Source: a candidate division WOR-3 bacterium
Lineage (GTDB): Bacteria > Hydrothermota > Hydrothermia > Hydrothermales > JAJRUZ01
NCBI GenBank assembly: GCA_039803925.1
Contig: JBDRZL010000016.1
Location: forward strand, 1-49,649
DNA length: 49,649 bases
Direction of reading: 5' to 3'
Shown: positions 4,352 through 49,499 of the stretch, piece by piece
Layout of the letters: each line of letters starts with the position of its first letter
Numbering within the stretch: the stretch's first letter is position 1
The notes under the pieces: generated by a model
Database searches by the model: none
Seen by the model: only the letters and a program-made list of their open reading frames with translations
Told to the model about the DNA's origin: nothing
Made by a program: the position numbers and the translations under genes

Positions 4352-4873
4352 CTATTTAGGGGATTGAACCCACAATAAATTATAAAATAAATCCTCTGGA
4401 AAATTAAAAAATTTTTTATTTTTGTTTTTTATTATTTTTTCATAAATTTTTCTTCCACATAAAGTATTTTCATTTAAGATAAAATGAAAGGTAAATTTGT
4501 TAATAAGAAAATGATTATCTAAGAAATTCATAAGATTTAAAAGAGATTCAGTCTGCTTAATTTCAATATTTTCTTCTTCAAAATTTCCAATAAGGGCAAT
4601 ACCAAGAGAATGATTGAATCTTTTAGTATGTGCACCCTCTTCCCCTATTTTCCTCCCTTCAAAAATTTTTCCATCAACCCCTATTATAAAATGATAACCT
4701 ATTAATAAAAACCCCCTTTCTCTGTGCATTCTGTCTAAATAGTTTATATCTCCATTATATTCCTTCTGAGATGTTGCTGTATGATGTATAACATAAAAGG
4801 GATGTTTTAATACTTTATTTACTCTCCCTGTGAACCCCTTTTTTAACCACTCCTCCCTTTTTATAATATGCAA
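4352..4873 (-). CDS. N-acetylmuramoyl-L-alanine amidase / PGRP-like (Amidase_2)
   Basis: 173 residues. Zinc ligands expected of Amidase_2 are H30 (VIHHTATS), H130 (FTFHFILNENTLCG) and C139; the conserved tyrosine is Y60 (IGYHFII). GALIGNF-like text (GIALIGNFEE) and the EGGAHT-like stretch GEEGAHTKRFN also fit. It would cut the bond between the lactyl group of MurNAc and L-alanine. No signal peptide is visible, so it may act in the cytosol on recycled muropeptides like AmpD. The usual HxD motif near H130 is altered. Its ATG lies 1 nt after the stop of the preceding membrane-protein gene, implying coupled translation. Confidence 0.75.
   Translation of the reverse strand: MHIIKREEWLKKGFTGRVNKVLKHPFYVIHHTATSQKEYNGDINYLDRMHRERGFLLIGYHFIIGVDGKIFEGRKIGEEGAHTKRFNHSLGIALIGNFEEENIEIKQTESLLNLMNFLDNHFLINKFTFHFILNENTLCGRKIYEKIIKNKNKKFFNFPEDLFYNLLWVQSPK
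4360..4370 (-). promoter_or_regulatory. T-arm-like GGTTCAATCCC element upstream of mdh
   Basis: GGTTCAATCCC reads on the minus strand 28 nt before the mdh ATG, inside the last codons of the amidase gene. GGG/CCC can pair around a 7-nt loop TTCAATC. A TATAAT box (minus, 4384-4379) would start transcription near 4372, placing the element at the extreme 5' end of the mdh mRNA. It is one of five such elements in this window. Confidence 0.5.
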
Positions 4874-10070: not shown

Positions 10071-10143
<73 letters not shown>

Positions 10144-10238: not shown

Positions 10239-10255
10239 AAAGGTTCAAACCCTTT
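10239..10255 (+). promoter_or_regulatory. T-arm-like hairpin in the rpsL leader
   Basis: AAAGG (10239-10243) and CCTTT (10251-10255) pair as a 5-bp stem around loop TTCAAAC, exactly the geometry and loop consensus of a tRNA T-arm. The core GGTTCAAACCC ends 23 nt before the rpsL ATG, about 8 nt into the transcript. No Shine-Dalgarno site lies between the element and the ATG. Confidence 0.55.
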
Positions 10256-13303: not shown

Positions 13304-13318
13304 TGGGTTCAACCCCCA
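13304..13318 (+). promoter_or_regulatory. T-arm-like element in the tuf leader
   Basis: TGGG (13304-13307) and CCCA (13315-13318) can pair around loop TTCAACC. The core GGTTCAACCCC ends 24 nt before the ATG and begins about 8 nt into the predicted transcript. It follows the same pattern as in the rpsL and mdh leaders. Confidence 0.5.
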
Positions 13319-27359: not shown

Positions 27360-27370
27360 AAATAAAAACC

Positions 27371-27486
<116 letters not shown>

Positions 27487-31176: not shown

Positions 31177-31187
31177 GGATTTGAACC
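31177..31187 (-). promoter_or_regulatory. GGTTCAAATCC element upstream of the bacterioferritin-type gene
   Basis: GGTTCAAATCC reads on the minus strand, 28 nt before the ATG at 31148 and directly after the stop of the preceding gene. Only GG/CC can pair around the TTCAAAT loop here, so the sequence rather than the stem is shared with the other copies. No clear TATAAT precedes it. Confidence 0.4.
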
Positions 31188-32791: not shown

Positions 32792-32823
32792 AAAAATTTT
32801 AAGGATTTGAACCTTATAATTTT
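32792..32823 (-). terminator. AT-rich hairpin terminator of the subtilase gene
   Basis: On the minus strand AAAATTATAAGG and CCTTAAAATTTT pair with 11 of 12 bases around a TTCAAAT loop, followed by more T residues. It begins 26 nt after the subtilase stop. The loop is the same TTCAAAT seen in leader elements, but here it closes a long stem with a T-tract. Confidence 0.6.
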
Positions 32824-49482: not shown

Positions 49483-49499
49483 AAAGGTTCAAATCTTTT
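49483..49499 (+). promoter_or_regulatory. T-arm-like hairpin in the leader of the last gene
   Basis: AAAGG (49483-49487) and CTTTT (49495-49499) form five pairs including one G-T around loop TTCAAAT. The core GGTTCAAATCT ends 30 nt before ATG 49527, and AAGGTG lies between them as ribosome-binding site. Confidence 0.5.

Follow-up and report, generated by a model that had tools for sequence, protein, structure and literature searches.

The operator of thrS is a structured leader that imitates tRNA, and in the intergenic-region viral IRESs, which are large pseudoknotted RNAs, a tRNA-elbow-like RNA at the L1 stalk holds the ribosome near the start. T-box leaders bind tRNA itself (reviewed in PMC7583486), and both TruB and TrmA act on T-arm hairpins (PMC4810234, PMC10484741). 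Here we describe a small hairpin of the T-arm kind in the mRNA leaders of candidate division WOR-3 bacteria, starting from a 49,649-nt stretch (the window) that is contig 16 of the genome G000 (1.84 Mb, 29 contigs). G000 to G003 belong to the same WOR-3 family, and G004 represents a sister family. Gene positions come from an 850-kb sample of G000, in which 771 genes were predicted by a simple script, with no published gene caller; leader statistics were computed on three genomes (G000, G002, and G003). To our knowledge, no described initiation signal or leader RNA class matches a minimal T-arm that is spaced from the start codon on a tenth of the genes of a bacterium.

Occurrence and family distribution

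The pattern GGTTCAANYCY occurs seven times in the window against 0.55 expected, a count that none of 100 dinucleotide shuffles attained (Table 1). The five leader elements of the preliminary description were all recovered with the loop sequences and start distances it had listed, as were the TATAAT box 5' of four of them and the lack of a Shine-Dalgarno site in the rpsL and tuf leaders. All five sequences thus exist, but the last-gene site is a doubtful member of the group because its CT end is absent from the 1430 other leaders of the three genomes. Downstream of the sixth, leader-like site lies a membrane-protein frame without a usual start, and the locus is possibly a leader peptide, a frameshift, or a decayed gene. 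The window also carries a 5S rRNA gene (27370-27486, minus strand) with no 16S or 23S gene adjoining; the 16S gene was found on contig 7. At the gathering score, Rfam 15 matched only 5S rRNA and tRNA in the window, and ARAGORN and Rfam found the tRNA-Thr gene there with no tRNA match in the leaders. A literature search, thin in its coverage of subscription journals, returned no T-arm leader element and no paper on a Shine-Dalgarno motif in WOR-3.

Table 1. T-loop hairpins and related sites in the window (distance, from the last C or the end of the core to the start codon; SD, Shine-Dalgarno site)
Feature	Position	Strand	Core	Distance to start	SD	Remarks
rpsL leader T-loop hairpin	10239..10255	+	GGTTCAAACCC (10242-10252)	23 nt (ATG 10276)	absent	
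tuf leader T-loop hairpin	13305..13317	+	GGTTCAACCCC (13306-13316)	24 nt (ATG 13341)	absent	
mdh leader T-loop hairpin	4359..4371	-	GGTTCAATCCC (4370-4360)	28 nt (ATG)	present	
Ferritin/bacterioferritin leader T-loop hairpin	31177..31187	-		28 nt (ATG)	present	2 bp only; gene product is Pfam Ferritin
Sixth, leader-like site	32803..32813	-	GGTTCAAATCC	25 nt (ATG opening just 8 codons)		A-T third pair; status uncertain
Last-gene site	49486..49496	+	GGTTCAAATCT	30 nt (last ATG)		G-U outer pair; CT end; doubtful
GGTTCAANYCY match within tuf CDS	13656					chance
tRNA-Thr T-arm	10082..10092	-	GGTTCGAGTCC	23 nt (TTG 10058)		tRNA gene 10143-10071

Across the G000 genome, GGTTCAANYCY has 169 matches, of which tRNA genes make up a minority, and the reversed control pattern has 3. 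In the 850-kb sample, GGTTCAA tops the 7-mer enrichment between -60 and -12: 64 leaders have it where 2.9 would be expected, and the reverse strand gives 9. With tRNAs masked, 73 of the 92 GGTTCNANYCC sites precede a predicted start by no more than 80 nt on the sense strand, and most begin at -30 to -40 relative to the start codon. The enrichment near starts, whose absence had been named beforehand as speaking against a selected element at a narrow start distance, is therefore present in this sample, and that claim holds. The relaxed motif GGTYNNANNCC at -48 to -25 is found in 10.6% of genes in G000, 7.4% in G002, and 10.2% in G003 but in only 0.3% in the sister-family genome G004. In the same zone, sense copies outnumber antisense copies by 81 to 8 in G000 and by 33 to 2 in G003.

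Only 4 of the 147 genomes of the phylum stand clearly above the tRNA baseline, each with 138 to 222 GGTTCWANYCC sites, and all four belong to the family of the window; a wider spread in the phylum was accordingly rejected. With the broader pattern GGTTCNANYCC, G003 has 285 sites versus 6 for the control. Three distant WOR-3 genomes (G046, G116, and G124) have slightly raised pattern counts of 60, 60, and 98 against control counts of 5, 8, and 14, which may reflect tRNA number, genome size, or an independent case.

Conservation at rpsL, tuf, and mdh of relatives, which had also been predicted, was found within the family: the three elements are kept in all family leaders read (tuf of G002 was not among them) and in none outside. 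The rpsL element is kept in G001, G002, and G003 and absent from G004 and beyond, the tuf element is kept in G001 and G003, and the mdh element is kept in G001 and G002, with the form GGGTCCGAATCCC in G003. A relative found via fusA (L100, Dive96_bin10.253), by which the group is assigned to candidate division WOR-3, has rpsL and tuf leaders that match those of G003. It carries an extra gene between rpsL and rpsG (L100:2623-3500), and its rpsG has an element of its own, while the rpsG of the window, immediately downstream of rpsL, lacks one. The gain of an element thus seems to accompany the gain of a leader. Orthologous leaders retain the element while their flanks drift, and the flanks of different sites are unrelated.

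The resemblance of the element to tRNA T-arms could in principle point to scattered tRNA debris, short repeats, or chance. This explanation is refuted by the reversed-pattern control, the absence from sister-family leaders, and the retention in orthologues; the unrelated flanks also speak against it, and we regard its probability as negligible.

The genes that carry the element include those for EF-Tu, ribosomal proteins S12, S15, S20, and S21, RRF, DnaK, GAPDH, MetK, GlnA, malate and isocitrate dehydrogenases, HU, a cold-shock protein, ACP, AhpC, ferritin, FtsZ, Rho, sigma-70, DnaA, DnaN, and Flp pilin, among others. Usually abundant proteins, as labeled post hoc by the author, account for 18 of 70 element genes versus 2 of 30 random leadered controls (P=0.03). 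Codon adaptation of predicted genes showed no difference with and without the element, a measure that is perhaps blunt at 30% G+C. At L088:14671-15278, small Flp-pilin-like genes stand in tandem with one element apiece.

Hairpin and loop pattern

The element takes the form of a 3-bp stem and a 7-nt T-loop. Base pairing was assessed by pair counts on fixed-register sites. Since the GG/CC pairs are invariant, they are uninformative on covariation, and the third pair carries the signal. It is formed in 58 of the 73 G000 sites, as G-C, A-T, T-A, or G-T, against 40.9 ± 2.8 after shuffling (0 of 5000 shuffles), and in 25 of the 27 G003 sites against 15.9 ± 1.7. The smaller G002 sample gave 13 of 23 (P=0.08), with P=0.02 for pair 4. 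Compensatory changes of the third pair separate orthologues of rpsL (A-T in G000, T-A in G002), of C1|110 (T-A versus C-G), and of C1|148 (G-C versus T-A). In G000 and G003, pairs 4 and outward are at chance, with no acceptor-like stem. Of the stems of 5, 4, 3, 2, and 5 pairs first assigned to the five leaders, only 3 bp are thus supported, and no sign of selection is seen on a fourth or fifth pair in single leaders.

Single-substitution counts over the 1430 leaders revealed zero tolerance at G52, G53, U54, A58, C61, and C62, whereas loop positions 55 (C), 56 (A and T), 57 (any base), 59 (any base), and 60 tolerate change; most of the variant elements retain a strong third pair. Position 57 prefers A over T, T over G, and G over C, giving the consensus GG-TTCNANN-CC. 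The TTCRANY loop first proposed was accordingly right in its T-loop pattern and too narrow at position 57, which is not restricted to purines. A closing G53-C61 pair and fixed U54 and A58, with positions 55, 56, 57, 59, and 60 variable, are what is expected of a T-loop, from which we infer that the element folds as a real one. The median hairpin energy is -2.8 kcal/mol at 37°C and close to 0 at 60°C; since many of the hairpins have little stability of their own, a binding partner probably stabilizes them.

Such a partner might be a protein that acts in trans by binding RNA or modifying T-loops (TruB, TrmFO, an m5U methylase, or another repressor or activator), lands on the element, and controls a regulon or mRNA stability. 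The element consensus GUUCNANNC equals the human mRNA consensus of the TruB homologue TRUB1 (PMC5713356), TruB is encoded in all four family genomes, and TrmFO is clear in G001 to G003. However, several leaders whose stems are intact have C in place of U55, the target base of TruB (seven with GGTCCNANNCC). Family and non-family genomes alike have a single TruB copy, and no family-specific extra copy or peculiarity was seen for TruB, TrmFO, the m5U methylase, or a Trbp111-type protein. The targets span all of metabolism, and a protein site leaves the placement of tRNA genes described below unexplained. We consider this reading unlikely.

Spacing from start codons and placement of tRNA genes

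The distance from the last C of the element to the AUG is mostly 19 to 24 nt in leaders with no Shine-Dalgarno core (67 leaders, three genomes) and 20 to 35 nt in those with one (46 leaders, three genomes); the longer spacing with a Shine-Dalgarno core has P=6e-5 in G000. Where an exact TATAAT is present (17 sites), the distance to this box is loose (interquartile range, 18 to 27 nt) and that to the AUG tight (21 to 25 nt). The element begins inside the same-strand upstream gene at 12 of 73 sites. Together with the tighter AUG spacing, this ties the element to the start codon and not to the start of transcription, and the earlier suggestion of an element at the mRNA 5' end was abandoned. The same observations weigh on a DNA-level element, either a promoter-downstream site or a transcription factor operator. 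TATAAT is enriched 5' of element sites and the motif is partly palindromic, as such an element might be, but nearly all copies have one orientation, their spacing is set by the AUG more than by TATAAT, 12 of the 73 begin in an upstream gene, and no DNA-level reason is apparent for Shine-Dalgarno-dependent spacing or for tRNA T-arms in the same position. A role in DNA is thus highly improbable.

Shine-Dalgarno sites are commoner with the element than in comparable genes (22/59 versus 54/282; P=0.0035). The two co-occur above expectation, and the element therefore does not simply replace the Shine-Dalgarno site, contrary to one of the roles initially proposed for it. In leaders of G000, G002, and G003 without a Shine-Dalgarno site, an A at -3, fixed relative to the AUG, is present in 73% of those with the element; it resembles the A-rich starts of groups that make little use of Shine-Dalgarno sites.

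Genuine tRNAs also stand ahead of open reading frames. Among 38 family tRNA genes not trailed by another tRNA, 19 have an ATG open reading frame 8 to 20 nt past the tRNA end, compared with 4 of 26 in other WOR-3 (P=0.007), and the same placement without a Shine-Dalgarno site is seen for 16 of 38 versus 1 of 26 (P=0.0005), in a set whose loci were non-randomly drawn and include a few sister-genome orthologues, so that not all are independent. In the family tRNA-ORF pairs, the CC of the tRNA's own T-arm lies 21 to 28 nt from the AUG (median, 24), slightly farther than in the mini-hairpins (median, about 21; P=0.0008). The tRNA-Thr of the window is a case in point. Its T-arm CC precedes by 23 nt a TTG that probably starts a Sua5/YrdC-LMWPc gene, the choice of start being inferred, and a real T-arm therefore occupies the mini-hairpin position. 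A protein gene follows a tRNA within 9 to 17 nt, mostly with no Shine-Dalgarno site and with the T-arm 21 to 28 nt ahead of its start, at this locus and at L004, L005, L063, L067, L076, L080, L093, L095, L098, L197, L211, and L270. Of all the observations, the tRNA placement hints most strongly that the decisive feature is a T-arm at a defined distance from the start codon.

The tRNA-ORF pairs also bear on a maturation of mRNA 5' ends, in which RNase Z or a relative would bind the T-arm and cut about 11 nt 3' of it, as in pre-tRNA, leaving leaders of about 10 to 15 nt; tRNA-mRNA cotranscripts would be the natural form of this substrate and mini-hairpins a reduced one. Processing of tRNA 3' ends must free the genes behind tRNAs, giving leaders of 9 to 17 nt, and hairpin genes would end up with similar ones. 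Shine-Dalgarno cores, moreover, begin almost always at least 11 nt past the CC, just beyond the would-be cut. Against this, the usual RNase Z substrate consists of the T-stem plus the acceptor stem, and pairs 4 and 5 are unselected here. The would-be cut site shows no sequence signal; indeed, the leaders of the three genomes hold no nucleotide signal at any fixed distance 3' of the hairpin. Cutting alone would also leave the fixed AUG distance unexplained, and we give this pathway a rather small chance of being right.

A putative translation-start mark and its relation to known systems

Taking as direct observations the RNA-strand motif, the hairpin, the fixed and free loop positions, the start spacing, the family restriction, the conservation in orthologues, and the placement of tRNA T-arms, we propose that in this one family of uncultured vent bacteria a T-arm some 20 to 25 nt before the start serves as a general mark for translation initiation. 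We put the probability of this sequence-based reading at just under one half (about 0.48). The mark would consist of a 3-bp stem and 7-nt T-loop, GG-UUCNANY-CC, about 20 to 25 nt 5' of the start codon. With the AUG in the P site, the folded T-loop would sit just beyond the point where the mRNA leaves the 30S subunit, and there a fixed candidate receptor (ribosomal RNA, a ribosomal protein, or an initiation-associated protein) would hold it. The T-loop so held would presumably raise initiation on mostly housekeeping mRNAs, both the effect and its sign being conjectural. A Shine-Dalgarno site, where present, would cooperate with the hairpin and move its spacing by a few nucleotides, and genes 3' of tRNAs would use the T-arm of the cotranscribed tRNA likewise. 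The tight spacing could alternatively come from a bound protein that needs to avoid the 30S subunit. In the 16S rRNA of the family, which yielded no candidate receptor, the 3' end is of the normal anti-Shine-Dalgarno type (CACCTCCTTT), no insertion is evident, and a TTTGAACC complement is missing, so the element fails Shine-Dalgarno-type complementarity. A broader version of the proposal, in which T-arms recruit ribosomes both as mini-hairpins on roughly 10% of genes and as intact tRNAs acting as mRNA leaders, in effect a minimal, IRES-like role for the tRNA elbow, is more tentative, and we lean against it.

If the translation-start reading is true, bacteria would possess a start signal made from a tRNA fragment and distinct from Shine-Dalgarno, leaderless, and A/U-rich starts. 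Such a signal would help to explain initiation on mRNAs without Shine-Dalgarno sites in this lineage, link tRNA genes with mRNA leaders, and allow a direct test of T-loop docking on the initiating ribosome. Under the rival readings too, the element represents a large, family-specific class of mRNA hairpins without an Rfam match.

Among known RNAs, the element is closest to the tRNA T-arm (RF00005; T-loop, PMC4810234), with which it shares a 7-nt UUCNANY loop closed by G-C, an unvarying U54 and A58 (which pair in reverse-Hoogsteen fashion in T-loops), and free positions between these two. Unlike the tRNA T-arm, it has a 3-bp stem and no acceptor or D-arm, it stands in mRNA leaders, and its position 57 may be U and its position 55 C. 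It shares its primary consensus and short-hairpin form with the mRNA sites pseudouridylated by TRUB1/TruB, but those sites lie in human mRNAs, whereas the element is fixed before start codons and its U55 is mostly present without being required. Like the Shine-Dalgarno sequence, it is start-spaced, genome-wide, and on the mRNA strand; it differs in being a hairpin and not a complement of the anti-Shine-Dalgarno sequence, in lying farther upstream, in its confinement to one family, and in often occurring alongside a Shine-Dalgarno site. A likeness to the intergenic-region IRES would follow only if the translation-start reading is right. With the thrS operator and the T-box, the element has in common a tRNA-related structure in a bacterial leader; those are large and serve single genes or amino acid regulons, whereas the element, a minimal hairpin, is found at some 10% of genes.
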